From positions 1 to 39,316 of the forward strand of contig JAISAI010000118.1 in NCBI GenBank assembly GCA_031266795.1: a stretch of 39,316 nucleotides of DNA, read 5' to 3'. The translations under genes were made by a program, and so were the position numbers. Below the pieces are notes generated by a model that saw only the letters and a program-made list of their open reading frames with translations, was not told the origin of the DNA and searched no databases. The stretch's first letter is position 1, and every line of letters starts with the position of its first letter. Shown here piece by piece: positions 11,920-39,100 of the stretch. Source of the stretch: Eubacteriales Family XIII. Incertae Sedis bacterium (lineage in GTDB: Bacteria > Bacillota > Clostridia > Peptostreptococcales > Anaerovoracaceae).

Positions 11920-11948
11920 ATTATACTATTTTCCTACAATTCAATCAA
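11920..11948 (-). promoter_or_regulatory. lacI-type gene promoter
   Basis: On the minus strand TTGATT (11948-11943) and TATAAT (11925-11920) are spaced by 17 bp. The expected start point falls about at 11912-11914, on the ATG, leaving no room for a ribosome site. Confidence 0.6.
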
Positions 11949-11955
11949 TAAGCTC

Positions 11956-11984: not shown

Positions 11985-12051
11985 CGCCTTAACAGTTCAC
12001 TTATCTCAAATCGTCGTCATGACGGAGCAATCACGTGAGGAGGAAAACATT

Positions 12052-17932: not shown

Positions 17933-17944
17933 AAAACCGCCCGC

Positions 17945-18751
17945 TCAGGCGTTTGCGCCGATGATGTTTTTGCGCACCGCCTTCAGGTAGTGCTTGCAGT
18001 TCGGGTCCCTTCCGACGAGGACTTCTGTCGCGTAGATCGCGGCGCGCATATCTTCCGCCGTGGGGTCGACGATCGCGCTATCCATGCCTGCGGCCATCGC
18101 GAGGCTCAGGAATACCCTGTTGATCGCCCTTCGGTACGGCAGGCCGTAGCTGATGTTGCTGAGCCCTGACGTGATATGCACTTCGGGATAGCTTTCCTTG
18201 ATGAGCCGCACCGCGTCGCCGAAGCTCGCGAACGCCTCGCTATTGGCGCCGAGCGTCGTGACGAGCGGGTCGATGAACAGCCGCTCCCGCGCGACGCCGT
18301 ATTTGTCCGCCTTGGCTATGATGTCGCTCGCTATCTTGGCCTTGATCTTCGGGTCGTTCGGTATCCCGCTCTCGTCGTCGCACGTCAGCGCCACTACGTT
18401 CCATTCCGTATCCGCTATGGCGGGGAAGAGCGTGTCGCATTTCTCCCCCTCCCCGGAGACGGAGTTGATGAGGCCAGGCCTTTTCGCGAGCGGTATCATG
18501 TCGAGGATGGTCTGCACGTCAGAGCTGTCGATCGACAGCGGGGTCTCCGTCGTCTCCTGCACGAGCCCTATGAGCCATTCAAGCGTATCGTGCTCGATCT
18601 CGGGCGCGGTGCCGGCGCAGACGTCTATGTACGATGCGCCGTACTCGGACTGTTTCTCCGCGAGCCCTTTGATATACGCGTCGTCCTTGCTTTCGATGGC
18701 TTTCAAGGTCGACGGGATGAATCCGTTGATTTTTTCTCCTATGATTATCAT
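17945..18751 (-). CDS. Methyltetrahydrofolate:corrinoid methyltransferase, second paralogue
   Basis: 268 residues from ATG 18751 (AAGAGG upstream). It is a pterin-binding TIM barrel: MIIIGEKINGF, LSIDSSD, LINSVSGE, FIDPLVTTL and SGLSNISYG, the last holding the catalytic Asn of the MeTr family. It resembles AcsE but also MtgA-type enzymes that move methyl groups between corrinoid proteins and tetrahydrofolate in demethylase systems. With mtaB/mtaC in the window and no other MT2 gene seen, it is a candidate for the step from methyl-MtaC to tetrahydrofolate (inference). It lies 57 bp after acsE. Confidence 0.85.
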   Translation of the reverse strand: MIIIGEKINGFIPSTLKAIESKDDAYIKGLAEKQSEYGASYIDVCAGTAPEIEHDTLEWLIGLVQETTETPLSIDSSDVQTILDMIPLAKRPGLINSVSGEGEKCDTLFPAIADTEWNVVALTCDDESGIPNDPKIKAKIASDIIAKADKYGVARERLFIDPLVTTLGANSEAFASFGDAVRLIKESYPEVHITSGLSNISYGLPYRRAINRVFLSLAMAAGMDSAIVDPTAEDMRAAIYATEVLVGRDPNCKHYLKAVRKNIIGANA

Positions 18752-18808
18752 ATTAACCTCTTTTCTTTTTTCCAAAATGTTCTTTTCAAAGCTGCGCGCG
18801 GCGCCCCG

Positions 18809-19594
18809 TCACAGTTCCAGGTACGAATCCGCGTAGAGCGTGTGGTTCAGGATCACCTCGGCGGTCTTGACGACGTCCATGAGGTGCTTGTCGTTCGGGT
18901 TCAGGATAGCGGACGTGAGCCCGCACTCTATGGCCATCGCGGTCAGCACCGCGTCTACGACGGGCCGGACGTCTTTCGGCATGCCGTTCGAGGCGTTCGA
19001 GAGGCCGGCCGTGGACTTGAGGCCGAGGTCGGACAGCTGGCGGATGAACTCGAGGTATTCCACCTGCTTTTCCTGCATGCCCTTGATGACGAGAGTGAGC
19101 GGGTCGAACCACATATCATCGGACTCCATGCCGAGGGACATCCCGTGCTCGAGCATCTCCTGGCAATACTGCATGCGCTCGTCGTTGTCGCGCGGCACGC
19201 CCTGCTTCGAGCACAGGGCGATGACGATAGCGTCGTTCTCCGCCGCGAGGTCTATGTAGCCGAGCCTGTCGCCCGCGTCGGCGGAGTTGATGATGGGCTT
19301 GCCCTTTGAGCGGTCGTAGACGGCTATGCCGGCCGTGATGGCCTTCTTGTTCGCCGTGTCGAGCGCTACCGGCACATTGTCGAAGTTCTCCTGGAGCAGC
19401 TTGACGCCCCACTGCATGATTTCCTCGCCGTCGCGCTCCGCCGGGCCGATATTCAGGTCGAGATATGTCGCCCCCGAGGCGAGCTGGTCTTTGGCCCGCT
19501 CGAGTATCGGCGCCGGGTCACGGTTTGCGATAGCGTCCCTGATGGCTGGCGAGATGCAGTGTATGCGCTCGCCGATGATGATGAATTTGTCCAT
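18809..19594 (-). CDS. acsE: Methyltetrahydrofolate:corrinoid/iron-sulfur protein methyltransferase
   Basis: 261 residues, the length of Moorella MeTr (about 262). It passes the methyl group of CH3-THF to the corrinoid iron-sulfur protein. Conserved points are MDKFIIIGERIHCISPAI, LDLNIGPAE, VALDTANKKA, IINSADAG, MWFDPLTLV and AGLSNASNGMP with the catalytic Asn, ending HTLYADSY. The ribosome site is GGAGG. It lies 64 bp downstream of acsC in the acs operon. Confidence 0.93.
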   Translation of the reverse strand: MDKFIIIGERIHCISPAIRDAIANRDPAPILERAKDQLASGATYLDLNIGPAERDGEEIMQWGVKLLQENFDNVPVALDTANKKAITAGIAVYDRSKGKPIINSADAGDRLGYIDLAAENDAIVIALCSKQGVPRDNDERMQYCQEMLEHGMSLGMESDDMWFDPLTLVIKGMQEKQVEYLEFIRQLSDLGLKSTAGLSNASNGMPKDVRPVVDAVLTAMAIECGLTSAILNPNDKHLMDVVKTAEVILNHTLYADSYLEL

Positions 19595-19658
19595 TTTGTT
19601 CCTCCGTTTCGCTGAAAGCGTATCCCCTTGTCGCCGGGGATGGTTGTTTGTGGCGGCG

Positions 19659-20996
19659 TCACGCCGCAGCCTGGAACTCCTTCAGGAATTTGACGAGCGA
19701 GATAGCCTCGTTCGGCGCCACTACGATGTTCCAGCCGGGCAGGTTCTCCTCGAGCTCGCCCTTCAACACCGCCACCTTGCCCGGGATGAGCAGGTTGCGG
19801 TTTTTGATCTTGTCCTCTATGCTCTCTTCTTTTATGAACTTCGCGATGGAGCCCGCCGAGAGCTTGCCCGCGGCCCACGCCGTGAGCACCGAATAGCCTC
19901 CGGCGTCCGGTATGAGCAGGTTTGTCGGGACGCCTGAGCGCTCCACCTCCCCCGATATGATGAAGTAGGTGAGCGCGAAGTCCACGGTCAGCGCACAGAT
20001 CGAATTTTCGTCCGCGCCGTTGATCGGGTAGTTGCCGACCTCTACCGTCATGGGCTTTTGCGGGTCCGTGTATATGTTTTGCCTCAGCCCGTAGAGCGGC
20101 AGGGCCTGCGCGTAGCCCATGCCCTCCATGACTATGATGCTGCCGTATTTGAGCGTGAACAACGATGCCAGCGCGCTCTGCATGCGTTCGTCGCCGGGCG
20201 CGAGCTTCGCGACGTTCACGAGCGACGGGTAGCCGAAGCTTCTGTCCTCGGACTTCAGCGCGGAGCGCCTGATCTGGACGGCGTTCTCGAATGCGCTCTT
20301 GACCGACGCCGCTCCCACGTCTATGACGATGTCCTTTACCTCCGCTTTCTCGAGCGCCTGCACCGCGTCGTGCAGGGCGTCGAGGCTGTCCGCCGTGACG
20401 CCGAGCGGCACGCCGTATTCCTTCGCGAGCGCCGCGAACGCGTCGAGGTTTGACGGGTTGGCGCCGTTCAGGACAGGCTTCGCGTCCGCGACGGCCGAAA
20501 GCGCCTCTTTCGCGGCGTCTGCGTCGTCTGTGGCGAGCACGAGCGTCTTTCCCGAATCCGCCGCCTTTTTCGCGGCCTCGGCAAAGGCCGCCTTGTCCCC
20601 TGCGTACTCGAGGTATATGAGCTCGACGCACATACGCTCCCCTATGCGCTCGTAGTCCACTTTGCACGCCTCCGCTATCGCCGTGTCCGCCGCGTCCGGC
20701 GTGGCGCACACTGCGTACAGGGGCTTGGAGACGAATGTCTTGTCATGGCGGAAGAGCACGGTCTCGCCGCCAAGCGCGTATTCGCCGCCCGCTACGCCAA
20801 TCTTGAACGCCTTCATCGGCGGGGCGGTGGCCTCGCTGAGCGCGTCCAGCGCGTCCGGCGACATGTGGGGGCACTGCTCGATCTGGGCGACGCCCTGCGC
20901 GACCTTCATCGCGAAAGCCATGCAGGTCGGCTGGCTGCAGTCCTTGCAGTTTGTTTTGGGTGTGAGTTTGAAAATATCTATTCCCTTGAGAGCCAT
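19659..20996 (-). CDS. acsC: Corrinoid iron-sulfur protein, large (gamma) subunit
   Basis: 445 residues. The N-terminal [4Fe-4S] domain has C17, C20, C25 and C42 (TNCKDCSQPTC, then QCPHMS). The middle is a TIM barrel and the C-terminus a cobamide-binding domain (SGEVERSGVPTNLLIPDAGGYSVLTAW). With AcsD it forms the methyl carrier between AcsE and AcsB. The ribosome site is AAGGAGGT. It is 12 bp after acsD. Confidence 0.96.
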   Translation of the reverse strand: MALKGIDIFKLTPKTNCKDCSQPTCMAFAMKVAQGVAQIEQCPHMSPDALDALSEATAPPMKAFKIGVAGGEYALGGETVLFRHDKTFVSKPLYAVCATPDAADTAIAEACKVDYERIGERMCVELIYLEYAGDKAAFAEAAKKAADSGKTLVLATDDADAAKEALSAVADAKPVLNGANPSNLDAFAALAKEYGVPLGVTADSLDALHDAVQALEKAEVKDIVIDVGAASVKSAFENAVQIRRSALKSEDRSFGYPSLVNVAKLAPGDERMQSALASLFTLKYGSIIVMEGMGYAQALPLYGLRQNIYTDPQKPMTVEVGNYPINGADENSICALTVDFALTYFIISGEVERSGVPTNLLIPDAGGYSVLTAWAAGKLSAGSIAKFIKEESIEDKIKNRNLLIPGKVAVLKGELEENLPGWNIVVAPNEAISLVKFLKEFQAAA

Positions 20997-21008
20997 TGAC
21001 TTACCTCC

Positions 21009-21959
21009 TTACATCAGCTGGTCGACCATGCCTGACACCGTTTTCACGGCGGCCGGATGCCTCAGGATGACGGCGTTCGCGCCGGCCGCGAGGGCCGCGA
21101 CGGCGGTGGATATCTCCATCTCTATGCCGCGCTCCTCCCTCGGCCCCCATTCGGGGAAATCCTCCTCGGAAACGAGCGACTCCTTGACCGCCCACGCGTC
21201 GCTCCCTATGGGTATGATGACGGGCATCTGCAGCGTGTCGTCGTTCTGCGTCAGCGCGGCGAGCTTCACGCGCTCTATCGTCGAGGCGAGGTATTCGAAC
21301 CCGTAGCCCGCGGCCGCGTTGCCGAGCTGCATGACGCAGGAGCCGGGCGCTATGCCCATCTGCGCGATGAGCACGTTGAGCTGCTTCGCGAGGTTGATGT
21401 CGACGGCGGACTCCGCGCCGATCTTTTGGCCGTAGGCCGTGACCGCCGCGACGGCGATGCCCTTGTAGTTTTCCTCCTTGGCGGCTAGGATCAGCACATT
21501 GTGCCCCTGCGCGGCCTCGGCTATCTTTGGTATCAGTTCGCCGTCCTTGTCTGTGTTGCCCGTTGTCTGTATCACGAGCGGCTTGCCGCCCGCCGTCGCG
21601 GCTTCCGCCGCTTCTTTCGCTATGGCCGCCGCGTCTTCCGATGGGATATTGTCCCCATTCGGGTCTGCGCTCTCAAGTATGAGGCTCACAAAGTCCGCTC
21701 CGGGCGCCGTACACGCCCTCGCGGCAATGTCAGCGACGCTTTCCGCGCCCTCGTAAAACGCGGCGAGCTCCGGCAGGCTGCGGTCGGGCCCCTTGTCTGA
21801 AAACTCGATCCCCGTCGCCGGCTTGTGCTCTATCGGCGCGTCGAAGCTGTAGAACGACCATACATTCTCGCCCCCTATCGTCACGGCGGCGTCTCCCGCG
21901 CCTATCACGACCTCGCCTATCTTCGCTTTGAATACCTGCGGTTCCTTCTTGTATCCCAT
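21009..21959 (-). CDS. acsD: Corrinoid iron-sulfur protein, small (delta) subunit
   Basis: 316 residues, the usual size. TIM-barrel protein of the CdhD/AcsD family: IGGENVWSFYSFDAP, DFVSLILESADPNG, GSCVMQLGNAAAGYGFEYL and MPVIIPIGSDAW. It pairs with AcsC and helps bind the cobamide. The ribosome site is AAGGAG. A 98-bp gap separates it from acsB. Confidence 0.95.
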   Translation of the reverse strand: MGYKKEPQVFKAKIGEVVIGAGDAAVTIGGENVWSFYSFDAPIEHKPATGIEFSDKGPDRSLPELAAFYEGAESVADIAARACTAPGADFVSLILESADPNGDNIPSEDAAAIAKEAAEAATAGGKPLVIQTTGNTDKDGELIPKIAEAAQGHNVLILAAKEENYKGIAVAAVTAYGQKIGAESAVDINLAKQLNVLIAQMGIAPGSCVMQLGNAAAGYGFEYLASTIERVKLAALTQNDDTLQMPVIIPIGSDAWAVKESLVSEEDFPEWGPREERGIEMEISTAVAALAAGANAVILRHPAAVKTVSGMVDQLM

Positions 21960-22057
21960 ACTTTTCTCCTTTCCATTTACAGCGCTGCACGGCTGCTTTT
22001 ATATATATCCTCTAAATCAGGGCTCAGGCCCAATTACTGGATCAGGCCTCTGCGGCA

Positions 22058-24187
22058 TCAGAACATCGGGTCCATGCCGAGCGCGGGGTGCTCTTTCCCC
22101 GTGAGGAACTCCATGAGCGCGTCGGGGTCCTCGGCCACCGTCTCGTCGCCTATCATGTCCGTGAAGCCTTCTATGCCGTACAGCTCCTTCGCGGTCGCGT
22201 CGAGCTTGGACCTGACCATATCTTTCAGCGCCTTCGGCATCCAGACTATGCGCGCGGAGCCGCCTTCGGCCTTCATGAACTTCTTCGAGGCGATGAAATG
22301 CTTTCCGTGGCCCATGAATCCCGGGGTCTGCACGCCGCCTCCCGTCATCGAGGCCATCTCGGGGAACGTCATGCCCAGAGGCGTGATGCCGAAATGCTCC
22401 CTGTTGACGATGACTACGCCGTTCGAGTACGGCTCTATGCCGCAGATGCACTCGAAGCAGCCGCAGCTCGTCATCGGATCGACCATGATCGAGTACAGCG
22501 AGACGCTCTCGAGGTTGCCGTGCGACGAAGCGACGACGTTTTCGTTCACATCCTCCCATATGCCTATCTCTGGGTCGAGCGGCCTGTCGCGCGTGACTAT
22601 CTGGCACGGGCCCTGCGGGTTCAGCTGGTTCGTGGCCTTCGCGTCGAGCCACGACACGGCGCCGCACAGGCCGAGCCTCTCGGGGGTCACGATGCAGACG
22701 TGCGACGGCGAGAACGACTGGCAGAGTATGCAGTTGTAAAATACGTCCACGCTCTCGTCCGTCAGGGAGAGGAGGCGCTCGTCCCTTTTGTCGTAGACCT
22801 CGTTCGCCATGGCCTTGAGCGCGGGAAGCTCGTCCTGGTTCGTGTATATCTTCACCTGGCATTTGTCGACGACCGTGTCGTACTCGCTCATGATCTTCGC
22901 GTAGAGTATCTCGCCGAGATGCTTCAGGCGGAAGCCCGCGTCGAAAGCGGCCTTGGATACGCGCAGCCGGATGATGTCGCGCTGCCCCGTGTGCATGACG
23001 CCCTCGGCGCAGTTGATGAAGTAATGGAAATTGCGCTCGAACACGGGCTCGAAGTCCGTCTGCATATTTTTGCCCGCCACCTCCGCGATCATCGCTATGC
23101 CGAGGCTCTCGCCCTCGGGCATATCGTCTATGTCGGGGCCGAACAGCTCGGTGCTGTGGTCCTCGATCTCGTGGGCCTCGAGGGTGCGCACAAGCTCGAA
23201 CGAGGGGAAGCGCGCCCCGTCGAAGTCCACGCGCGTGTCCGCCTTGCGCACGATCTCGCCCTCAAAGGCGCTTGCGAACGCGACGGGTATGTCGACGTTT
23301 GTGATCTTCAGCTTGATGTCGCGCGCCTCGAGCGATGTCTCTATGAACGCCTGCGTGTCTTTCTGTATGAGTATGCTCTTCGGTACGGGCCACATATCCT
23401 TCTCGTCGTCCGTGACGACGGGGAAGCCCATCGCGATCGCGCCCGCCCCGCACGACACCACGATGTCGCTGACAGGCTCGTAGACGTTCACGAAGGCATG
23501 GATGCGCCAGAATGTGTAATCGTCGAGCGCCCACCTGTCGCCGGGCTGCACGGCGCCGAATATCATCGCGGCCCTGTTCACGAAAGATATGATATGCGCC
23601 ACCTGCCATATGTCGGGCCCGACGGCGACGACGCGCACGGGGAACCCCATATTGAGCTCTTTGCGCCTCGCCTGCTCGATGATCTCCCCGAGCAGGAATA
23701 CGAATATGCCGCGCGTCTGGTAGCCCTTGATGATGTCTACGGCCTCGTCGTCCGACGGCGCCTTGCCGTAGACGACGACGAAGCCGGGGATGTCGTTCGT
23801 GACGAGCGGCACGCCGAGCTCACGCACCTCGGCGTCCGAAAGATGCCCGTGGTACTTTCCCTCGTAGGGATCTGGCCCCTTCGCGTATTTGCACGCCTCT
23901 ATGGCCTCGGCGGCCATGAAGACGCCGAAGCCCGTCTTGAACACGGCGCCCATATTCTGGTCATGTATGTTCCACTGCTTCGCTTCCTCAAACGCCTCTT
24001 TCAGTTCTCCTATGGTCGTGACTTTCCGCGTCGTGTACGAAAGGAAATTGGCGAGGTAGTACGCCGTGTTCGGCATGGCGAGCGGGGCGTCCCCGCCAAG
24101 CTCTTCCACCGCGTCGCAAAGCGCTTTTTCGGCGATGGAGTACATCTCGTCCGCTCCGTCGAATACCCTGTCGAATAATTTTTTCAT
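22058..24187 (-). CDS. acsB: Acetyl-CoA synthase (CODH/ACS alpha subunit)
   Basis: 709 residues, full length including the N-terminal CODH-contacting domain. It makes acetyl-CoA from CO, a methyl group and CoA on the nickel-containing A-cluster. The six A-cluster ligands are present as C486, C489, C498, C508, C575 and C577 (NCILCQSFSPSHVC and SCGCFEC). These correspond to the Moorella residues 506, 509, 518, 528, 595 and 597 with a constant offset of 20. Its start overlaps the cooC stop by 4 bp. Confidence 0.97.
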   Translation of the reverse strand: MKKLFDRVFDGADEMYSIAEKALCDAVEELGGDAPLAMPNTAYYLANFLSYTTRKVTTIGELKEAFEEAKQWNIHDQNMGAVFKTGFGVFMAAEAIEACKYAKGPDPYEGKYHGHLSDAEVRELGVPLVTNDIPGFVVVYGKAPSDDEAVDIIKGYQTRGIFVFLLGEIIEQARRKELNMGFPVRVVAVGPDIWQVAHIISFVNRAAMIFGAVQPGDRWALDDYTFWRIHAFVNVYEPVSDIVVSCGAGAIAMGFPVVTDDEKDMWPVPKSILIQKDTQAFIETSLEARDIKLKITNVDIPVAFASAFEGEIVRKADTRVDFDGARFPSFELVRTLEAHEIEDHSTELFGPDIDDMPEGESLGIAMIAEVAGKNMQTDFEPVFERNFHYFINCAEGVMHTGQRDIIRLRVSKAAFDAGFRLKHLGEILYAKIMSEYDTVVDKCQVKIYTNQDELPALKAMANEVYDKRDERLLSLTDESVDVFYNCILCQSFSPSHVCIVTPERLGLCGAVSWLDAKATNQLNPQGPCQIVTRDRPLDPEIGIWEDVNENVVASSHGNLESVSLYSIMVDPMTSCGCFECICGIEPYSNGVVIVNREHFGITPLGMTFPEMASMTGGGVQTPGFMGHGKHFIASKKFMKAEGGSARIVWMPKALKDMVRSKLDATAKELYGIEGFTDMIGDETVAEDPDALMEFLTGKEHPALGMDPMF

Positions 24188-24951
24188 CTGTCCAAGTTCT
24201 CCTTTATCCGCCGCATTTCTTCTGCAAATATCGCGTCAGCTTCTATCGCTGGTTTTCCCGATCTGTCGGCGCCCATCAGATTTGTATGGTAGCCGACGAA
24301 CCCGAGCAGTTCGCTTTGGGGCGCCCTTGCCGCTATGAAATCCTCGTCCGCCAGGCCCGTCACCTTGTTGCCCACCACGCTGACATTCGTCACACCGAGA
24401 TCGGCCGCGAGGCGCTTTATCCGCTCATATGTCTGTATGCTGCGCGAACCCGGCTCGACGACGACGATGAATTTGTCCACCATGCGCGCCGTGCCCCTGC
24501 CGAGGTGCTCTATGCCGGCCTCCATGTCCATGATGACGACCTCGCCCGACTTGACGACGAGGTGTGACACCACCCTTCTCAGGACCACATGCTCGGGGCA
24601 GACGCAGCCGCCGCCCCCCGTATCGACCGTCCCCATGACGAGCAGCTTCACCCCGTCTTTGTCCACGGAGAATCTGGCCGGTATGTCGTCGACGCGCGGG
24701 TTGATCTTGAAGAACGCGCCTGGCCCCCCTGACCCGGACTTCGTGCGCTCCGCGATCAGCTCCGACATATCCGCGATCGGCTTGACGCGCGCCAGCTCAT
24801 GATCAGTGAAGCCGAGCGCGAGGCCGAGGTTCGCGTCCGGGTCGGCGTCCACGGCGAGCACTCGCTCCGCGTCTGCGGCGTACAGCCTTGCGAGCGACGC
24901 AGCGATCGTGGTCTTGCCTACCCCTCCTTTTCCTGTGACAGCTATCTTCAT
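24184..24951 (-). CDS. cooC: CooC/AcsF-type nickel-insertion ATPase
   Basis: 255 residues, MinD/ParA-like P-loop ATPase with a deviant Walker A (TGKGGVGKTT at 6-15), LAVDADPDANLG and the metal-binding C-x-C pair C116/C118 in GGGGCVCPEH. CooC dimers bind nickel and support CODH maturation; the homologue AcsF matures acetyl-CoA synthase. Its position between cooS and acsB, with overlap into acsB, suits either role. The gap from the cooS stop is 1 bp. Confidence 0.93.
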   Translation of the reverse strand: MKIAVTGKGGVGKTTIAASLARLYAADAERVLAVDADPDANLGLALGFTDHELARVKPIADMSELIAERTKSGSGGPGAFFKINPRVDDIPARFSVDKDGVKLLVMGTVDTGGGGCVCPEHVVLRRVVSHLVVKSGEVVIMDMEAGIEHLGRGTARMVDKFIVVVEPGSRSIQTYERIKRLAADLGVTNVSVVGNKVTGLADEDFIAARAPQSELLGFVGYHTNLMGADRSGKPAIEADAIFAEEMRRIKENLDR

Positions 24952-24952
24952 C

Positions 24953-26878
24953 TTATATGTCCAGCAGCTTCCTTTTCGCTTCGATCCCGTCTATTATCGC
25001 CTTTACGAGCTCGTCGGGGTCTGTGTTGATGATGTATCCCGCGCCGCTGATCCCGCGCGTCCCCTCCGTGATGAGCTCCGTCATCTGCTCCGAGCCCTGC
25101 ACCTGCGGCTGTATGCCGAGATAGACGTCGAGCCCCGTCGCGACGACGTAGTTCGCTATCGCGACGGCTTTCTCACTCATCCACTCGGGCGCGCAGCCGA
25201 CGACGGGTATCTTTGTGATGTCCACGCCCCAGTCCTTCGCTATGCCTGTCGCGAGCAGCATCATGCGGCTGATGTCCACACAGGCGCCCATATGCAGCAC
25301 GGGGGGTATGCCTATGAGGGTACAGACCCTTTTTAGCCCGTCGCCGCACAGCTCCTTCGCCTCCTTGTTCATGAAGCCCACCTTTGTGGCGGCCTGCGCC
25401 GCGCAGCCCGTCGTCACGACGAGGATGTCGTGCTCCATGAGCGTGCGCATGATGTCGATATGCGAGTAGTCGGGGCGCACTTTCGGATTGTTGCAGCCTA
25501 CCATCGCGACGGCCCCGCGCAGCACGCCCGCGCGTATCGCGTCTATGGCGGGCTTGTACGAGCCGCGCTCCTCCGTAGCGCCGTTCACGGTCTTGACTTC
25601 GTGGCTGTTTGTGACGTCGTCGAGCTCGAGGATGATCTGCTCGCAGGGGTAGCCCACGGTGGCCTCCTCCTTGGACTTGGGTATGTATACCTTTTCCTTA
25701 TCCCTATTCTTGTAGTTGTCTATAGCCTCTTTGACGAGGCCCTTCGCCTGATCGAACGCCGTCTCCGTCTCGAACTGCACGTATTTCGAGCCCGGTATGC
25801 GCGCGACGGGCGACGACGTGACGAAAATAGTGTGGTAGCAGTCCGTGAGGGGGCCGAGCGCGGGGAATATGCACTGGATGTCGACGCACATCATCTCGAC
25901 GGCGCCCGTCAGCACGGCGTTCTCCTGCTGCAGGAAGTTGCCTACCATGCGCACGCCGTGCCGCATAGCGACCTCGTTCGCCGTGCAGCACAGGCCCGCC
26001 ATATTGACGCCCTTCACCCCTGCGGACTTCGCGTACTCCTGTATCTCCGGCGTCTCCGCCGCGAGCACCATCATTTCCGAGAAAGCGGGGTCATGGCCGT
26101 GCACGACGATGTTCACCATCTCATCCTCGAGCACCCCGAGGTTGCCCTCCGTCGCGCGCGCCGTCGGCGTCCCGAACAGGATGTCCGAGAAGTCCGTGCC
26201 TATCATGCTGCCGCCCCAGCCGTCGGCCATGCCGACGCGCAGGCTCTGGCGCACGAGCGTGGGCGCGTCCGCCGTATTGCCCATATGGGTCATGTGCAGC
26301 GATGTGGACACCTCGCGGTCTATCGCGCGCGGCTCTATTTCCTGCTCCCGCCACACCCTCTGACGCTCGTCCGTGGCTCGCTTCAGGCAGTCGAGCGCGC
26401 CGAAGGGCTTGCCAAACTCGTTCAGCCCGTGCAGCGCCACATCGTGCGCTACGTCGTAGACGTCGCGGCCTTCGCTCTCCACGCCCCACTCCGCCGCGAC
26501 GCGCAGCAGCTTCGCCTCGTCGCGGATCCTGAACTGGCTGTCCGCGCTCGACTTGAGAAGGGCGTGCGCCATCTCGCGCGCATGGTCAGAGTGGGCGGCC
26601 GAGCCCGCCGCAGCCCTGCGCAGGTAGTGCCTGGCCGCGATCGTGTCCACGTCCGCGCCGCATATGCCGCGGTCAGCCTTGGGCGTGATGCGGCACGGCC
26701 CCATCGAGCAGATGCGGCAGCATACGCCCTCCTCCCCAAATTTGCACTGGGGCTTCTGCTTTTCCTTGCGCTCCTGCCACGTGGGGGCGCCGAGCCCCGC
26801 AGCCATCTCGCAGAGCTTGCCCGTATCCGCTTCGAGCTGTTCTATAGTGGTGAAATCCAGTTCTTCCTTACGCATCAC
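24953..26878 (-). CDS. cooS: Ni,Fe-carbon monoxide dehydrogenase catalytic subunit
   Basis: 641 residues. It interconverts CO2 and CO, and as the AcsA equivalent passes CO to AcsB. The D/B-cluster cysteines are in CKFGEEGVCCRICSMGPC and GICGAD. C-cluster segments are VVHGHDPAFSE, GLCCTANE, AMVGCNNPK, TTGCAAQAATK and HMGACVDISR. The catalytic residues expected of an active CODH therefore look intact. The start overlaps the cooC2 stop by 4 bp (ATGA). Confidence 0.97.
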   Translation of the reverse strand: MMRKEELDFTTIEQLEADTGKLCEMAAGLGAPTWQERKEKQKPQCKFGEEGVCCRICSMGPCRITPKADRGICGADVDTIAARHYLRRAAAGSAAHSDHAREMAHALLKSSADSQFRIRDEAKLLRVAAEWGVESEGRDVYDVAHDVALHGLNEFGKPFGALDCLKRATDERQRVWREQEIEPRAIDREVSTSLHMTHMGNTADAPTLVRQSLRVGMADGWGGSMIGTDFSDILFGTPTARATEGNLGVLEDEMVNIVVHGHDPAFSEMMVLAAETPEIQEYAKSAGVKGVNMAGLCCTANEVAMRHGVRMVGNFLQQENAVLTGAVEMMCVDIQCIFPALGPLTDCYHTIFVTSSPVARIPGSKYVQFETETAFDQAKGLVKEAIDNYKNRDKEKVYIPKSKEEATVGYPCEQIILELDDVTNSHEVKTVNGATEERGSYKPAIDAIRAGVLRGAVAMVGCNNPKVRPDYSHIDIMRTLMEHDILVVTTGCAAQAATKVGFMNKEAKELCGDGLKRVCTLIGIPPVLHMGACVDISRMMLLATGIAKDWGVDITKIPVVGCAPEWMSEKAVAIANYVVATGLDVYLGIQPQVQGSEQMTELITEGTRGISGAGYIINTDPDELVKAIIDGIEAKRKLLDI

Positions 26879-27642
26879 ATTATCCTTTCAAGTATCTTCT
26901 CGAACGCCGCGCGGGCGGGCGAGCCCGCAGGCAGCAAGGCCGTCGGCCTTCCCTCCGCGTCGTACTCCGCGACGAGCGGATCCGAGGGGACCACCCCCGA
27001 AAGCGCCAGCCCCTGTGCGGAGATCTCCTCTTCCAATCCTTTTGCAAGCGCCCCTCCGGGCGCCTTATTGACGATAAAATCCATAGATTTCGGAGCGAGC
27101 CCGAGCTCGCGCGTCAGCTCCAGTATCCGCCCGGCGGCCTGAACGCCTCGCCGAGAGCAGTCGCTTACTATGATGATGCGGTCCACGCGCGGCAGGACGC
27201 CGCGGCTCAGGTGCTCCATGCCCGCCTCGTTGTCCACTACGAGGTAGCGGTAGTTCGACGCGTATTCCGCGATATGGCTCTGCAGGAGCCCGTTCACGAA
27301 GCAGTAGCAGCCCTTGCCCTGCGTGCGCCCCATGACGAGCAGGTCGTAGTCGTCTTTTTCCGTGATAGCCGAAAAGAAATGGGCGTCCAGCCACTCCTGC
27401 TTGGATACGCCCGGAGGTATCGTCCCGCTTTCGTCCATGCCCGACGAATTGATCTCGTCGCGCAGGTCGGCGAGGGCCGCCCCCGCCTCCACGCCGAGCA
27501 CGTCCGCGAGATTCGCGTTCGCGTCCGCGTCGACCGCGAGGGCTGGCGTCAGCCTTTTGCGCACGAGATAGCCTATGAGCCAGCCCGAAAGGGTGGTCTT
27601 GCCAGTGCCCCCTTTGCCTGAAATCGCAATTATCTCCTCCAT
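26875..27642 (-). CDS. Second CooC-like nickel-insertion ATPase
   Basis: 255 residues from ATG 27642, where homology begins (MEEIIAISGKGGTGKTT); a TTG at 27678 extends the frame without support. It has a deviant Walker A, AVDADANANLADVLG and a C-x-C pair C112/C114 in GKGCYCF. It is distinct in sequence from the CooC at 24184. It is the promoter-proximal gene of the acs operon. The two ATPases may each serve one of the two nickel sites, CODH C-cluster and ACS A-cluster (inference). Confidence 0.9.
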   Translation of the reverse strand: MEEIIAISGKGGTGKTTLSGWLIGYLVRKRLTPALAVDADANANLADVLGVEAGAALADLRDEINSSGMDESGTIPPGVSKQEWLDAHFFSAITEKDDYDLLVMGRTQGKGCYCFVNGLLQSHIAEYASNYRYLVVDNEAGMEHLSRGVLPRVDRIIIVSDCSRRGVQAAGRILELTRELGLAPKSMDFIVNKAPGGALAKGLEEEISAQGLALSGVVPSDPLVAEYDAEGRPTALLPAGSPARAAFEKILERIM

Positions 27643-27698
27643 TCCTGCATTATCCGGCAAACCATACCCTGATTTCAATATTACACAGAGTGCAATTT

Positions 27699-30513: not shown

Positions 30514-31146
30514 TTAAATAAGCTGCTTCGCCAGGTCCGCCGCGGCGGCTGCGTTGCTCGCCGTGCCGTCGGCCCCTATCTCGTCCGCAAAGCCCTGCGT
30601 GATGGGAGAACCGCCGATGAGTATCTTGACCTGGTCCCTGATCCCCGCTTCCTCGATCGCCTTCACGACGTTGCCCATCTCGGCCATAGTCGTAGTCAGC
30701 AGGGCCGACAGGGCGATGATGTCCGCGTTGTTGTCCTTCGCCGCCTGCACGATGCTCTCCTGCTTGACGTCCGTGCCGAGGTCGAAGACCTCGAAGCCGT
30801 TCGCCTCAAGCATGAGCTTCACGAGGTTCTTGCCTATGTCGTGCAGATCGCCGTTGACCGTGGCGATCACGGCTTTGCCCGTCGATGTGACGCCCTCCTC
30901 AATGAATTTTTCCTTGAGCACGGCCGTGGCGCCGTTCAGCGCGTCGGCGGCCGACATGACCTCGGGTACGAAAGCGTCGCCGCTCGTGAAGCGCTCGCCC
31001 ACGATCCCCATGCCGTGAAGCAGCCCTTCGTCGAGTATCTTCTGGGCGGATATGCCTTCGCCCAGCGCTTCGTCCACGTGTTCGAGCACTTCGTCCTCTT
31101 CGCCTTCCTGTATAGCCAATGAAATCTTTTCAAGTATGTCAGACAT
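30514..31146 (-). CDS. mtaC: Methanol corrinoid protein (MtaC-like)
   Basis: 210 residues. The B12-binding N-terminal cap helices (LLHGMGIVGERFTSGDAFVPEVM) precede the cobamide domain with GDLHDIGKN, His102 being the lower axial cobalt ligand, then SALLTTT and IGGSPITQGFADEIGAD. It accepts the methyl group from MtaB. It lies 63 bp downstream of mtaB with a strong GAGGAGG site, so it is the direct partner. Related MtbC/MttC proteins are similar; neighbourhood decides the call. Confidence 0.92.
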   Translation of the reverse strand: MSDILEKISLAIQEGEEDEVLEHVDEALGEGISAQKILDEGLLHGMGIVGERFTSGDAFVPEVMSAADALNGATAVLKEKFIEEGVTSTGKAVIATVNGDLHDIGKNLVKLMLEANGFEVFDLGTDVKQESIVQAAKDNNADIIALSALLTTTMAEMGNVVKAIEEAGIRDQVKILIGGSPITQGFADEIGADGTASNAAAAADLAKQLI

Positions 31147-31209: not shown

Positions 31210-32598
31210 CTACGCCAGATCGTAGACCTCGGGGCGCAACGCCTTTGTTTTTGCGATGCCGTTTTTGACGAATTCCTGCTCGTCTTCCGTGATGGAGTCA
31301 ATGGTCTTCCTGATCTTGTCGAGCTGCTTGACCTCCTTGTCGGAAAGCGCGAGCCTGCCCGCGTCGTAGCCCTTGCGGAGCGCGTCCGCCGCAAGCATGG
31401 CCGCGGCCTTCGTGCGCTTGAAGTAGTTGTCCTCCACCTTGACGAGCTCCTTTGATATTTCGAGGACTATGTCGGGCCTCAGGATGTAAGCTGTGGCGTT
31501 GATCGGGCTGTCCGTGTCCGCGTTCAGGTCGCGTAGGAGGAGCGCCGTATCCTTGCCGCGCTTCGTCCCCTCGTTCATGAGGCGGCAGTCGTAGGCGAGC
31601 TGCTCGAATGAGCAGACCTCCGAATATGCGGCCAGCAGCTTGATGTGCTGTATGGACTCGTTCGACCAGAGGTCAGCCAGGCTGATAGCGACATTGCCCA
31701 CGTGGGACAGATGCGCGACGGCCGCAATACGGCCTTCCATGGATATAGGCGTCCCCGTGATTGCCTTCAGGTAAACGCCCTCGTAGCCGCAGTCCTTGTC
31801 TGGGCCTTTCGCCCCTACCTGCACCGCCACCAATGTCCTCACCGCGCTGCAGACGCGGTCGATCGCCGCAAAGACCTCCGGGATCATCTTGCCGTCGGCA
31901 AGCACCATGGACGTGTTCGCAAACCCGCACGCCGTGTCGCCGGCCGCCACGACGTCGTTCTCGTCGGCTATCCTCACGATCTCCGTCCAGAGCCTCTCCA
32001 TGTCGGGGCAGCCAAGCGTGGCGTATGAGAAGATCACCTTCTCTATGTCCGCGTACATGAGCCCTTCGTCATGGACATACTTGCCCCCGATAGATTCGAT
32101 GGCGAGGAGCTCCGTGCCGGCTTTGGCGCTGCCCTCGAAGGTCTCGAGGACGGAGTCCCAATGCTTCCCATGCCACATATGCTCGAGCTCGCGGCCCTCG
32201 CGTATGTCCACAGGCGTCTGGCGCACCGCGCCCTTCGTCCCTGTCTTCGCCTCATTCTCCTTGATGATGTCGTTCACCACCTTCGCTATCTCGATGCCCC
32301 ATTTGGGCACAAAGGTGGTCTGCGGCAGAAGCTCGATCTCCGCGACGAACCCCGGCACCTGCAGGATGTTCGCGCGCTCGGATATGCCCGTCGCGATCTC
32401 CTTGTAGATATTGATGACCTCGGGGAACGTGCCTTCGTTGACGAGCATCGTCGGCAGTGTGAAATTGACTTCGGGGTACATAGTACCGCCTCCGATAGAT
32501 ATCCCGTTTTTCAGCGTAACGGGATGAACGGCGTGCGCATAGACAAAATCGTCGAGATTGTCGTACGCGGTCTTGGTATATGAGATTTTTCCCATCAT
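31210..32598 (-). CDS. mtaB: Methanol:corrinoid methyltransferase (MtaB-like)
   Basis: 462 residues from ATG 32598 (ATG 32595 also possible; AAGGAGG just upstream). It activates methanol on zinc and methylates MtaC. The expected zinc-site regions are present: LAIESIGGK (Glu), AAGDTACGFANTSM (Cys) and GPDKDCGYEGVYLKAITGTP (Cys). SLADLWSNESIQ and FEQLAYDCRLMN also match the methanogen enzyme. Length agrees with Methanosarcina MtaB (about 461). It is followed by mtaC and preceded by an AraC-type regulator. Confidence 0.93.
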   Translation of the reverse strand: MMGKISYTKTAYDNLDDFVYAHAVHPVTLKNGISIGGGTMYPEVNFTLPTMLVNEGTFPEVINIYKEIATGISERANILQVPGFVAEIELLPQTTFVPKWGIEIAKVVNDIIKENEAKTGTKGAVRQTPVDIREGRELEHMWHGKHWDSVLETFEGSAKAGTELLAIESIGGKYVHDEGLMYADIEKVIFSYATLGCPDMERLWTEIVRIADENDVVAAGDTACGFANTSMVLADGKMIPEVFAAIDRVCSAVRTLVAVQVGAKGPDKDCGYEGVYLKAITGTPISMEGRIAAVAHLSHVGNVAISLADLWSNESIQHIKLLAAYSEVCSFEQLAYDCRLMNEGTKRGKDTALLLRDLNADTDSPINATAYILRPDIVLEISKELVKVEDNYFKRTKAAAMLAADALRKGYDAGRLALSDKEVKQLDKIRKTIDSITEDEQEFVKNGIAKTKALRPEVYDLA

Positions 32599-32620
32599 AC
32601 TCCTCCTTCCAGTCCAGTGC

Positions 32621-32637
32621 GCCGCCAAGAGGGCGGC
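32621..32637 (-). promoter_or_regulatory. Small hairpin in the mtaB leader
   Basis: GCCGCC and GGCGGC arms of 6 bp flank a 5-nt loop, about 20 nt upstream of the mtaB ribosome site. It may stabilise the 5' end of the mRNA. I found no convincing promoter in this 171-bp gap. Confidence 0.35.
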
Positions 32638-32723
32638 ATGAAAATGAACCATCCGCCGTTAGATTACCTTGCGCGGGCGCCGGCTGTCTTGTAAAAGAAC
32701 ATCAAGTTTTTGAAGTTTTCTCC

Positions 32724-34330: not shown

Positions 34331-34981
34331 TTGTCGGATACGGCGCGTGAGCTGGTGGAGGCCGTCAAGTGCGGCGATGAGAACAAGACTATTTCCCTTG
34401 TCAGGCGGATGCTTTCCGAGGGCGCCGACCCCTATGAGATACTCTACGGCAGCCTGTTGCTCGCGATGAGGGAGATCGGGGACAACTTCAATGACGACGC
34501 GGTATTCATCGCGGAGGTGCTCAACGCCGCCCAGGCTTGGAAAAAAGGGTATTCACTTCTCAAGAGCATCATTGTGGACGAAAAAACCCCGCTTCTCGGC
34601 CGCGTCGTGATAGCGACCGTCGAGGGGGACGTGCACGATATAGGCAAAAACCTCGTGAGCGTGTTCCTCGACGCGGCGGGCTTCGAGATCGTCGATCTCG
34701 GCGTGGACGTGTCGGCGGACATGATAGTCGACGCCGTGAGGGAGCACCGCCCGGACATCCTCGCCCTCTCGTCCCTGCTCACCGTGACGATGACATACCA
34801 CGAAGTGATCATACAGGCCCTCAAGGACGCGGGGCTCAGGGACGGCCTCATCATTTTCGTCGGGGGGGCGCCCATCACAAGGGAGTACAGCATAGAAATC
34901 GGGGCGGACTATTACGAGAAGGACGCCGCGTCCACGGCGGAACACGCGCGCAGGCTGTTCGCGAAAAAGGGCTATGGGTAA
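34331..34981 (+). CDS. Second methyltransferase corrinoid protein (MtaC-like paralogue)
   Basis: 216 residues, TTG start at 34331 with GAGGAGG 6 nt upstream; no better start exists. It has the same layout as the MtaC at 30514: cap helices, then EGDVHDIGKN with His102, SLLTVT, and VGGAPITREYSIEIGADYY. No substrate methyltransferase is adjacent, so it may share MtaB or serve another one elsewhere. It leads an operon with a CobW-like GTPase, a His-rich protein and a RACo activator. Confidence 0.9.
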   Translation: MSDTARELVEAVKCGDENKTISLVRRMLSEGADPYEILYGSLLLAMREIGDNFNDDAVFIAEVLNAAQAWKKGYSLLKSIIVDEKTPLLGRVVIATVEGDVHDIGKNLVSVFLDAAGFEIVDLGVDVSADMIVDAVREHRPDILALSSLLTVTMTYHEVIIQALKDAGLRDGLIIFVGGAPITREYSIEIGADYYEKDAASTAEHARRLFAKKGYG

Positions 34982-34999
34982 TATTACGCAAATGATTGC

Positions 35000-35096
35000 G
35001 GGTAATTGCTTGGGGTGAATGTTTGTGGGCAAATGGCCGTGAGTAATTGGTTGGGGTAAATGTTTGTGGGCAGAATTGTGGGTAAAGGATTGTGAG
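35000..35096. repeat. Degenerate ~40-bp repeats between corrinoid and CobW genes
   Basis: Similar blocks start at 35000, 35041 and 35080 (GGGTAATTGCTTGGGG, GAGTAATTGGTTGGGG, GGGTAAAGG), each of the first two followed by TGTTTGTGGGCA. The 118-bp gap is otherwise featureless, and no normal ribosome site precedes the next ATG. Confidence 0.55.
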
Positions 35097-35099
35097 TCT

Positions 35100-35705
35100 A
35101 TGAAGTATATAGTTTTTTCTGGGTTTCTCGGCGCGGGCAAGACGATGGCGGTCAGTTCTTTTGCGGGGCATTACCTGAAAAAGCCGCGCAAGGATCCCGA
35201 TCGCGCGGACAGGATAGTGATAATAGAGAACGAGATCGGCGAGACGAACTACGACGACGAGCTTCTGGGCAGCGAGGGCTATTCCGTCAGCGGCATGCTG
35301 TCGGGATGCATCTGCTGCTCGCTCGCCTCGGAGCTGTCGGCCGCCGTAAAAGGCGTCATACGCGACTATTCGCCCGAATGCATTATTATCGAGCCGACGG
35401 GCCTCGCCTCCCCCGGCAAAGTGCTCGAAACGCTGAACGGCTTCATCTCGCATGAAGACGAGGTGAAGGTCGTTTCCGTCATCGACGCGACCCGTTACCG
35501 CGAACTGGCGGGGATCATGCCGAAGATGCTCGCGGACCAGATGGAGAGCGCAGACCTGCTGCTGCTCAACAAGACGGACGCGGCGGCGAAGGATGAGGTG
35601 CGTGTGATGCTGCAAGAGATAAGGGGCTTCGGCTACAAAGCGTGTGTAAAGCCGGTATCGCTGTCGGAGGGCGTGGACGCGTCCATATGGAAGGGGTTGC
35701 TATGA
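35100..35705 (+). CDS. Small CobW/HypB-type (G3E) GTPase, candidate metallochaperone
   Basis: 201 residues from ATG 35100, where homology starts. It has P-loop GFLGAGKT (8-15), IIENEIGE, the metal-site motif GCICC (69-73), IIIEPTG and the guanine-specificity motif NKTD. It is about two-thirds the length of classical CobW proteins because the C-terminal CobW_C domain is absent. G3E GTPases insert or deliver Zn, Co or Ni. The stop overlaps the His-rich gene by 4 bp, so a chaperone pair serving the corrinoid or methyltransferase enzymes is likely (inference). Confidence 0.85.
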
Positions 35706-36310
35706 GCGGGAATAGACAAGATGGCCATCACAAAACGGAGGGGAGCGGCCGCTGGGACGACCACGGGCATGGGCATGGGCATGGCAGCGAGCACGACCGC
35801 TGGCACAGCCACGAGTACGGCCATAGGCATGAACATGACGGCGAGCATGACGACGGCCACGGGCATAGCCACGGCCATGGACATGACCACGGCCACGGCT
35901 GCGATCACGATCACGGGCACACGCACGGCTGTGATCACGATCACGGGCATGAACACGCGCACGAACACGACGATCTGTACTCGGCCGACGGTGTCAGCGC
36001 CACCGTGGCGTCGCTCAGCGCAAAGCTGAGCGTATCGTCCGCGAGGAAGCTTGCGAGGCTTCTGGCGAACTGGGCTGCGGACGGCGGCTACATCGTCGGC
36101 CATATCAAGATAAAGCTCGAAGCGGGCGTATCGAGATACTGGGTCTCGTCCACAGGCTCATCCCTTGGGGAGAGAGCCTCGCGCACGTGGGAATCGCCCG
36201 ACGATAGGCCCACGGAAGCGGGCGTCACGGCGATCATCATAGGCCCTTCGGAAAGCGAACTCTTGAAGGCCTTGGAAACATCACTGCGGGCGGTCCGACA
36301 TCCGGCGTAG
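35702..36310 (+). CDS. His-rich protein with unrecognised C-terminal domain
   Basis: 202 residues from ATG 35702, overlapping the GTPase stop as ATGA. The first ~90 residues hold about 30 His, largely as HGHGH and DHDHGH runs, with the unit [18 protein letters not shown] repeated. This is a strong metal-binding tail. Residues from about 95 onward form a folded-looking domain ([52 protein letters not shown]) that I do not recognise. By analogy with His-tailed HypB, UreE or CooJ it may store or hand over nickel, cobalt or zinc; it is unlikely to be a membrane protein. Confidence 0.8.
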
Positions 36311-36357
36311 GCCGGCCGGGGCACTCTATTATCGGCTTGGAAAATGGGGGAATACAG

Positions 36358-38280
36358 ATGGCGGAAAAAGAATACAGGATAGTCTTCAGGCCCGAGAACG
36401 GGGCCGAGCACGAGGCGTATGCGCGGGAAGGCGCCACGCTCCTCTCGGTCGCGCGGAGCGCCGGAGTCGCGATAGACGCGCCCTGCGGCGGCGCGGGCAC
36501 ATGCGGCAAATGCAAGGTACGGCTCGTATCCGGCGACGTGGCGTCCGCTCGGGGCAGGCATATCTCCGAGGAGGATTTCGCTTCGGGCTACCGGCTCGCC
36601 TGCGAAAGCTCCGTGATCGCGGACGCGTATGTGTTCGTGCCGGCCTCAGCCCTCGCGTGGCAGTCGCAGATACGCGTCGACATCTCGGACAGCGAAAGCT
36701 CCCGCGAGAAGATAGACCGCATCAGGAGAGGTTTCGCTGACGCAGGTTTCGCCGTTGACGGCGGCGTCCGGAATGTGCGCGCCCTTCTCACCCCGCCCAG
36801 CCTCGACGACGCGGAGGCGGACAGGGAGCGCCTGCTCCGCGCCCTGGGCGGGAGTGCATCCTCCATATCCCTTCACGCCCTCCGCAAGCTGCCGACGGCC
36901 TTGCGGGACGGCGGGTTCTCCGTGGATTGCCTTGTCCTTGGGGGCGGCGCCGTCATCGACGTGGGCAATGAAGCCATGCGGCCCGTGGGCGTCGCCATAG
37001 ACATAGGCACGACGACGGTATCGGCGCTCGCCGTGGATCTCGACACCGGAGAGGTACTCTCCGCCGGGAGCGCCGGCAACGGCCAGATACGCTACGGCGC
37101 CGACGTGATCAACAGGCTCATAGAGAGCGCGAGGCCGGGCGGCGCGGAGCGGCTCAGGAAAGCCATAGCGTACGAATGCCTCGCGCCGCTTACCGCGAAC
37201 ATCTGCGAGAGCGCGGGCGTAGAGCCGTCCCGCGTCGCGAGGCTGTCCATAGCCGGCAACACGACTATGATGCATCTCCTGCTCGGGGTTTTCGGCAACC
37301 ATCTCAGGATGGAGCCGTATGTACCCGCGTTTTTCTCCGCCTGCGGCCTGACGGGAGCGGATATCGATATAGGCGTCAACCCCGGCGCCGAGGTATTCGT
37401 CGCGCCGTCCGTCGGCAGCTATGTGGGCGGGGACATCACGGCGGGGGCGCTTGCCTCCGGCATATACCGGACGGCGCTCGGCATGGACGGCGGCGGCGAG
37501 GGCGCGTCCCTGTTCATCGACCTCGGCACAAACGGGGAGATAGCCCTCTCGGGCGAGGGATTTCTCATGTCCTGCGCATGCTCCGCGGGCCCGGCCTTCG
37601 AGGGCGGCGATATCCGCTGCGGGATGCGCGCCATGGACGGGGCGATCGAGGCTGTGCGCATAGACGCCGACACCATGGCGCCCGATCTGTCCGTGATAGG
37701 CGGCGCCGAGCCCATAGGCATCTGCGGATCAGGGCTGATCGACCTCATAGGCGAGCTTTTTCGCTGCCGCATCATCGACGCGCGGGGCAAGTTTGTCCGT
37801 GACGGCGACAGGATAGGCGTGGATGAATGGGACGACGGGAAGTATTACGTACTCGCGCGCGGGGACGACGACGCCCCGGACATCATACTATCCGAGGTAG
37901 ACATCGACAATTTCATCAGGGCAAAGGGATCTGTCTACTCCGCCATACGGACGATGCTCGAGGTCACAGGCATGGAAGCCGGCGATCTCGGCCGTGTTTT
38001 CATAGCGGGCGGCATCGGCAGCGCGATAGACATCACGAGCGCGATCCGCATCGGCATGCTTCCCTCCCTGCCGCAGGAGCGCTACGAGTATATCGGCAAT
38101 ACATCGCTCACAGGGGCGTATATGACGCTGCTGTCGAAAGAGGCGCGAGACCGGCTCGAGGAGATACGGGGAAGCATGACGTATATCGAGCTTTCCGCGC
38201 ACCCGGGGTATATGGACGAATTCGTGGCGGCCTGCTTCCTGCCGCATACCGACGCGTCGCTGTTCCCGGCGGCGCCGTAA
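36358..38280 (+). CDS. RACo-type reductive activator of methyltransferase corrinoid protein (DUF4445)
   Basis: 640 residues from ATG 36358, preceded by GGGGG. The [2Fe-2S] domain has C43, C49, C52 and C82 (APCGGAGTCGKC). A linker domain of about 110 residues follows, then the ASKHA domain (VAIDIGTTTVSALAVD, LSIAGNTTMMHLLLG, LFIDLGTNGEIAL, VFIAGGIGSAIDI). It is about 100 residues longer than the paralogue at 16322, mainly in the linker. Operon position points to the corrinoid proteins of methanol metabolism as clients. An intrinsic terminator follows. Confidence 0.92.
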   Translation: MAEKEYRIVFRPENGAEHEAYAREGATLLSVARSAGVAIDAPCGGAGTCGKCKVRLVSGDVASARGRHISEEDFASGYRLACESSVIADAYVFVPASALAWQSQIRVDISDSESSREKIDRIRRGFADAGFAVDGGVRNVRALLTPPSLDDAEADRERLLRALGGSASSISLHALRKLPTALRDGGFSVDCLVLGGGAVIDVGNEAMRPVGVAIDIGTTTVSALAVDLDTGEVLSAGSAGNGQIRYGADVINRLIESARPGGAERLRKAIAYECLAPLTANICESAGVEPSRVARLSIAGNTTMMHLLLGVFGNHLRMEPYVPAFFSACGLTGADIDIGVNPGAEVFVAPSVGSYVGGDITAGALASGIYRTALGMDGGGEGASLFIDLGTNGEIALSGEGFLMSCACSAGPAFEGGDIRCGMRAMDGAIEAVRIDADTMAPDLSVIGGAEPIGICGSGLIDLIGELFRCRIIDARGKFVRDGDRIGVDEWDDGKYYVLARGDDDAPDIILSEVDIDNFIRAKGSVYSAIRTMLEVTGMEAGDLGRVFIAGGIGSAIDITSAIRIGMLPSLPQERYEYIGNTSLTGAYMTLLSKEARDRLEEIRGSMTYIELSAHPGYMDEFVAACFLPHTDASLFPAAP

Positions 38281-38341: not shown

Positions 38342-38451
38342 AGCGCGTGCTTTTGCGCAGGTTCCGAGCGGAGCGTACTTCGAGGTACGTGCGCATGGGA
38401 TGAGAGCCGCTTTGCTCCCAGCTACACGGGTTCTGTGTAAAAGTGCGCGCT
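38342..38451. repeat. Imperfect ~110-bp palindromic element abutting cooT
   Basis: The ends match in inverted orientation (AGCGCG/CGCGCT, then CTTTT/AAAAG and CAG/CTG). At 38369-38391 it contains, on the minus strand, CACGTAC then CTCGA then AGTACGCTCCG, the same core as the repeats at 9093 and 38676. It runs from just after the activator terminator to the cooT stop codon. Confidence 0.55.
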
Positions 38452-38647
38452 ATGCGGAAAAGAGACAAGCATCCGCTATTGTTATCACGTTCTTCACGAG
38501 GTCAATGCTCGATATGCCGCCGCGACAGGCGACCTCGTTGCCCGTGATGTCCGTGAGCGTGATTTCTTCCCCCTTGACCTTCACCCTCGTCACGTATTCC
38601 GCTAAGGGAGCGTCGTCGCCGGCTTTATAGACGGTGGACAGGCACAT
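38450..38647 (-). CDS. cooT: CooT-family nickel-binding protein
   Basis: 65 residues, the CooT size. It starts MCLSTVY with Cys2, the nickel ligand of the Rhodospirillum protein, and continues with a small beta-barrel pattern (VTRVKVKGEEITLTDITGNE, ISSIDLVKNVITI). CooT binds nickel as a dimer and aids CODH maturation. The ribosome site is GGAGGG. It stands about 10 kb from cooS, beside a His-rich CooJ-like gene. Confidence 0.9.
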   Translation of the reverse strand: MCLSTVYKAGDDAPLAEYVTRVKVKGEEITLTDITGNEVACRGGISSIDLVKNVITIADACLFSA

Positions 38648-38800: not shown

Positions 38801-39100
38801 CTAAGAATTCGCAAGCAACTCTATGGCTATCTCGATGTTGTCGGCGGCCTCGTCGATGGACGTGGCGCCGTTCTCTACGAGATCCGCAATATCGAGCGAG
38901 CCAAGCTCCCCGGCGGAGTCAAGCAGGCCGCGCAGCTCGCGCGCGTGCTCGCGGTTGTGGTCTTTCATATAGGAAAGTACCTTCGTGAGCTTCTCCTTGT
39001 CCATGCCGGACGACGCGCCGAGCCCGTTCATGGGGTCATGCGTATGGCCCTCGTCGCCGTGCGCGTGCGAATGCCCGTGAGGATGTATACCGTCATGCAT
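38801..39100 (-). CDS. Small His-rich protein, CooJ-like nickel-binding candidate
   Basis: 99 residues. The N-terminal ~22 residues are His-rich (MHDGIHPHGHSHAHGDEGHTH). The rest is a helical bundle (KLTKVLSYMKDHNREHARELRGLLD, ADNIEIAIELL) with further His, a pattern I have seen in small proteins beside cooT in CODH-containing Firmicutes. In Rhodospirillum the cooCTJ genes encode CODH nickel chaperones and CooJ is His-rich, though that protein has its His tail at the C-terminus. The ribosome site is AGAGG. Nickel handling is inference. Confidence 0.75.
   Translation of the reverse strand: MHDGIHPHGHSHAHGDEGHTHDPMNGLGASSGMDKEKLTKVLSYMKDHNREHARELRGLLDSAGELGSLDIADLVENGATSIDEAADNIEIAIELLANS

Follow-up and report, generated by a model that had tools for sequence, protein, structure and literature searches.

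The window analysed here is a stretch of 39,316 bp that makes up one complete contig (JAISAI010000118.1, our C23) of the 1.8-Mb, 142-contig draft genome of an Eubacteriales Family XIII. Incertae Sedis bacterium. It carries four plus-strand genes, divergent from a PocR/AraC regulator, that encode in order a corrinoid protein, a small G3E GTPase, a histidine (His)-rich partner protein and RACo, a reductive activator of corrinoid proteins. We found that the GTPase and the partner very probably make up a single COG0523 (CobW/YjiA) protein that is split over two genes, with the second domain placed on the next gene. An earlier note made from the sequence alone had taken the four genes for a maintenance module of methyltransferase corrinoid proteins in methanol acetogenesis; the order that it gave was correct, all four open reading frames (ORFs) being present and co-directional. 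The features are as follows, with positions in the window.

34331–34981, plus strand: second corrinoid protein, which opens the presumed operon (Pfam B12-binding, 4.3e-25; B12-binding_2, 2.5e-12)
35100–35705, plus strand: small G3E/COG0523 GTPase, G domain only (Pfam cobW, 1.8e-35)
35121–35144, plus strand: P-loop GFLGAGKT of the GTPase, read from the sequence and kept in relatives
35304–35318, plus strand: GCICC (CxCC) metal-binding motif of the GTPase, read from the sequence
35702–36310, plus strand: partner subunit with a His-rich N-terminus and a divergent CobW_C-like domain
35723–35971, plus strand: His-rich stretch of the partner, from the translation
35975–36307, plus strand: CobW_C-like domain of the partner, b-a-b-b-b-b-a (AlphaFold, Foldseek and hhalign)
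36098–36109, plus strand: GHIK signature of the partner domain (alignment of relatives and profile alignment)
36361–38280, plus strand: RACo/AcsV-type reductive activator of corrinoid proteins, which closes the presumed operon
30514–31146, minus strand: first corrinoid protein, MtaC-like
31210–32652, minus strand: MtaB

The GTPase gene and its conserved neighbour

The GTPase starts with an ATG at position 35100, with AGGA upstream, and in Pfam it matched the cobW nucleotide-binding domain only. The P-loop, CxCC, EPTG and NKTD motifs are present, which gives it the P-loop, NKxD and CxCC expected of a COG0523 G3E GTPase. GCxCC was invariant in the aligned relatives, the sequence matches in the PDB were to YjiA only, and the window genome has one clear COG0523 GTPase. 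Pfam called no CobW_C domain on the GTPase ORF, although this domain is typical, if not universal, on the same polypeptide in COG0523. The earlier description of a GTPase without CobW_C thus holds for this ORF, but a divergent CobW_C sits on the gene that follows. The GTPase stop and the partner start share ATGA, the 4-bp overlap that had been noted before, whereas 118 bp separate the GTPase from the corrinoid gene ahead of it and 50 bp separate the partner from RACo.

To our phylum sample, 398 genomes drawn from across the window's phylum, loci were admitted by the partner profile alone, and 26 of these genomes carried the partner. In every one of the 43 loci with both genes, the GTPase was followed directly by the partner on the same strand. 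The recurrence of the same gene order in 43 loci indicates that the pair is no chance arrangement, and the pairing proposed in the earlier note is a true, conserved one. The distance matrices of the GTPase and the partner correlated with r = 0.87 over 40 loci; where a corrinoid gene was a neighbour (26 loci), r was 0.92 for the GTPase and the partner versus 0.79 for the GTPase and the corrinoid protein. Considering that shared genome ancestry inflates all r values, the difference between them weighs more than their level. The GTPase and the partner evolve together.

G-domain-only CobW GTPases for which no partner was detected were also seen at two loci, L030 (10001–10594) and L036 (3328–3921). 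At the former, an ABC permease-like ORF lies just 3′ of the GTPase and URO-D genes are close by. This is perhaps a related GTPase that works with another partner.

Identity of the partner domain

The His-rich partner had no family match in Pfam or NCBIfam, and neither the window partner nor any of the relatives scanned matched the Pfam CobW_C model at E ≤ 1. A profile was built from the C-terminal 110 residues of the protein; an order-level search with a 3-row version gave almost no relatives, and a phylum-level search succeeded. The relatives lie directly downstream of small GTPases. Across 22 sequences, the G, H and K of a G-H-x-K motif (GHIK) were invariant, and in the profile alignment GHIK coincides with or adjoins the RAKG segment of CobW_C. 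Since the layout of the domain resembled that of CobW_C, this identity was put to the test; the hypothesis, which came from sequence layout, predates the fold search against the PDB.

The AlphaFold model of the window partner domain (pLDDT 87.4, pTM 0.80) has the order b-a-b-b-b-b-a. Foldseek comparison of this model with 350,542 PDB chains returned three matches at E ≤ 0.001, all of them to E. coli YjiA, with a probability of 1.00 and a TMq of ~0.5. When the partner was aligned by hhalign with the CobW_C domains of full-length CobW proteins, the score was 22.4 over 103 columns. The controls stayed at or below 10.9 (64 comparisons with pieces of unrelated neighbour proteins) and 10.7 (40 versions with shuffled columns). 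The absolute hhalign probability was just 18–51%, varying with the settings, so the sequence evidence by itself would be weak. Two further loci have the GTPase and the partner domain in one ORF, namely L041 from Methanohalobium and L042 from a clostridial metagenome-assembled genome (MAG). A His-rich linker joins the two domains in L042, and the model of this fused protein had full-length YjiA as its top match, over 379 columns.

On its modelled fold and its profile, both CobW_C-like, the partner domain is best described as a divergent CobW_C. These matches and the one-ORF forms indicate that the GTPase and the partner would be two halves of one COG0523 protein. The moderate TM-scores to YjiA (~0.5) tell against this assignment, as does the weak model of the fused protein (pLDDT 69), in which the C-terminal half is poorly resolved because few alignment rows cover it. 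A domain of unknown kind, in keeping with the "unrecognised domain" of the earlier note, was also considered and was dropped after the fold and profile tests. In another locus (L009; G656 C1:2087675), the partner domain is fused to DUF2284, a predicted metal-binding protein, in a single ORF of 392 amino acids (aa).

Compared with the CobW/YjiA family (YjiA, PDB 1NIJ and 4IXM), the pair shares the P-loop, CxCC, EPTG and NKTD motifs, a CobW_C-like second domain and an optional His-rich stretch between the domains. It differs in that it occupies two genes rather than one chain, and in that the second domain lies beyond the Pfam CobW_C model and has GHIK in place of RAKG. The CobW-related selenoprotein NF041053 of NCBIfam (195 aa) is a CobW relative of about the size of the window GTPase, but the latter scored 70.3 bits, below the cut-off of 180, and has Cys instead of Sec. 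UreG, with its separate UreE, UreF and UreH, likewise combines a small G3E GTPase with separate proteins, one of which is sometimes His-rich; however, that system serves nickel and urease, and its partners are not known as CobW_C relatives.

Genomic neighbourhood of the pair

Neighbourhoods were counted at the 32 loci of the phylum sample with both GTPase and partner, and a gene within 10 kb was taken as nearby. A corrinoid protein gene was nearby at 26 of the 32 loci (~8% expected per locus); when URO-D methyltransferase genes were counted as well, the figure rose to 28 loci. DUF1638 and pterin-binding (MtrH/MeTr-like) genes were common as well. For the first 17 loci, 15 had a corrinoid gene nearby versus 1.4 expected from the actual count of corrinoid genes in each genome (P ~3e-15), and with one locus per genus the figure was 8 of 10 genera (P ~4e-8), P values that presuppose independent loci and unclustered corrinoid genes. 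The earlier note had named the occurrence of homologues mainly away from corrinoid genes as the outcome that would speak against it; this was checked and was not what we saw, the pair proving to be tied strongly to corrinoid methyltransferase operons. Within a named genome collection, Acetobacterium paludosum, a Blautia and an Oscillospiraceae MAG likewise had the pair next to URO-D genes.

In methanogens and clostridia, COG0523 subfamily 13 was reported beside mtaA, mtaB, mtaC, ramM and MeTr genes by Haas et al. in a 2009 survey (PMC2770081), so that a link between COG0523 and corrinoid methyl-transfer chemistry is not new. The pair resembles subfamily 13 in its co-localisation with corrinoid-dependent methyltransferase genes, and the one-chain archaeal form L041 may belong to that subfamily, whereas the split form and the partner domain were not found in the passages of the survey that we consulted. 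Our literature search for split COG0523 proteins, or for CobW with corrinoid proteins and RACo, returned nothing beyond this survey, although a 2021 COG0523 review (PMC8360895) could hold a description. Papers on the mlp gene cluster and on cdmBCA leave a CobW-type GTPase unmentioned. As regards the clustering, published in 2009, the earlier suggestion of an undescribed system is not supported; of the split form we found no description in this search.

Candidate metal and clients

COG0523 proteins bind metal at CxCC together with GTP and are believed to hand it on to a client that the C-terminal domain recognises (PMC7689651, PMC9164220). Considering that the pair mostly sits among B12-dependent methyl-transfer genes, its probable task is to supply those enzymes with zinc. 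By analogy, we lean slightly towards a two-subunit, GTP-gated chaperone that delivers Zn(II) to zinc methyltransferases, where both metal and client are what we infer. The first gene would supply the metal switch, a GTP-binding domain with the CxCC site, and the second a client-binding CobW_C adaptor with an optional His-rich tail as a metal-collecting antenna. The two chains would form a complex. In the GTP-bound state, CxCC would pick up metal, most likely Zn(II), that comes either from the cytosol or from the His tail. Through its CobW_C-like subunit the chaperone would dock on an apo methyltransferase, of the URO-D type in most genomes and possibly MtaB in the window, and GTP hydrolysis would release the metal into the active site. 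The corrinoid protein and RACo of the window would then be operon neighbours from the same pathway and not necessarily clients. Maintenance of the corrinoid protein is less likely than metalation of methyltransferases.

The URO-D proteins near pair GTPases (n = 43) fell into two groups, with HxC kept in 22/22 of one and HxD in 15/21 of the other, and most of them also have a downstream GC. We take this pattern to be compatible with zinc sites of the MtaA/MtbA type. Besides MtaB, 10 URO-D-family genes are present in the window genome.

Several observations count against delivery of zinc to these enzymes. There is no URO-D gene within the window itself, and at four of the 32 loci of the phylum sample, as well as at L027, L029, L031 and L032, neither a corrinoid nor a URO-D gene was nearby. 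One genome (G092, incomplete) has the pair and gave no URO-D match. Furthermore, some corrinoid methyltransferases of acetogens, such as CdmB, need no zinc (PMC13222342).

A split COG0523 chaperone might instead carry cobalt or a corrinoid and, in a role like that of MeaB or CobW, help to load or protect the corrinoid protein. Corrinoid protein genes are indeed the commonest neighbours of the pair, CobW, the best-studied cobalt protein of COG0523, works with Co(II), and MeaB acts as a gate for B12 loading (PMC7689651). We nevertheless regard this cargo as unlikely. Anaerobes generally use the early cobalt route to cobamides, which does without CobW (general knowledge; PMC10206600, abstract), the conserved CxCC suggests a bare metal ion rather than a tetrapyrrole, and five loci (L025, L026, L028, L158 and L162) have a URO-D gene beside the pair and no corrinoid gene.

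It is quite improbable that the pair is a general allocation system for zinc or another metal, merely abundant in anaerobes that are rich in corrinoid methyltransferases. Some pairs do lie in plain housekeeping contexts, among purine genes (L115), with a tRNA synthetase and MgsA (L029) or with a topoisomerase (L027), but the linkage to corrinoid genes, at 26/32 versus ~8%, is far above what genome-wide abundance would produce.

A corrinoid-protein maintenance module of the GTPase pair and RACo, dedicated to methanol acetogenesis as the earlier note proposed, follows the gene order of the window and fits the presence of RACo in 25 of the 26 pair genomes (14.2 expected). However, RACo was near only 4/32 pair loci and MtaB near 0/32, so the emphasis on methanol and RACo does not generalise. 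Of the 398 genomes, 31 have MtaB, among them 7 of the 26 pair genomes (2.0 expected); MtaB adjoins the pair only in the window, and in the six other genomes it lies tens of kb or more away or on a different contig. On these counts MtaB and RACo were dropped as a conserved link of the pair. The methanol and RACo link is a feature of the window contig only, and a methanol module is too narrow a frame and has very little likelihood. The idea that the partner merely stores or buffers metal, with a folded domain unrelated to CobW_C, is scarcely credible, since despite the 27 His ahead of the domain in the window partner, and 117 in L031, the domain is also kept by those partners, about half of all, that lack a His stretch, and the fold, the profile and the one-ORF forms speak for CobW_C. 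The absence of the stretch from about half of the partners makes it accessory and not the core of the pair that it had been taken for; judged by sequence, it corresponds to the His-rich linker that joins the two domains in one-chain COG0523 proteins. The L031 partner (10587–12011) is 475 aa long, and its count of His ahead of the CobW_C-like domain is approximate (~117).

In the rest of the window, a cluster for ACS/CODH, the corrinoid-iron-sulfur protein and a pterin-methyltransferase occupies 16322–27678, and MtaC, MtaB and the PocR/AraC regulator follow further along on the minus strand. From these genes the source genome is acetogen-like, with methanol genes. The corrinoid protein of the operon (TTG start, 216 aa) is, as the earlier note said, the second one, the MtaC-like first being on the other strand. 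An imperfect direct repeat of ~40 bp, GGTAATTGCTTGGGGTGAATGTTTGTGGGC / GAGTAATTGGTTGGGGTAAATGTTTGTGGGC, lies ahead of the GTPase gene, in the interval that follows the corrinoid gene (34980–35085). RACo carries Fer2, RACo_linker, Raco_middle and RACo_C_ter (ASKHA C-terminal) domains in one protein (Pfam) and scored 796 bits against NCBIfam AcsV, just below the cut-off of 800; this full RACo closes the operon but does not accompany the pair in a conserved way. The ACS/CODH cluster contains another RACo-like ORF (16322–17932, minus strand), which has the middle and C-terminal domains only, with no Fer2 reported. Several RACo homologues, in G452, G477, G526, G299, G379, G656 and others, have one or two in-frame TGA, TAA or TAG codons in the matched frame, which could reflect recoding, pseudogenes or an artefact of reading past the natural stop. 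Convergent with RACo near the contig end are a CooT-like gene (38450–38647, minus strand; Pfam CooT, 6e-15) and a gene for a protein of 99 aa that is His-rich at its N-terminus and fits no family (38801–39100, minus strand), which together look like a second, nickel-related accessory set. As the window is the whole contig, sequence past position 39316 cannot be seen.

To our knowledge, few COG0523 chaperones have a known client, and we know of no account of the zinc route to the methyltransferases of acetogens and methylotrophic methanogens. In the split form, the GTP switch and the client-binding domain can be purified, swapped and tested separately, and the operon context names URO-D methyltransferases and MtaB as candidate clients. 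The partner represents a small protein family missing from Pfam and NCBIfam. More tentatively, the split COG0523 form could be the system by which anaerobic bacteria at large, and some archaea, load their corrinoid-dependent methyltransferases with zinc.

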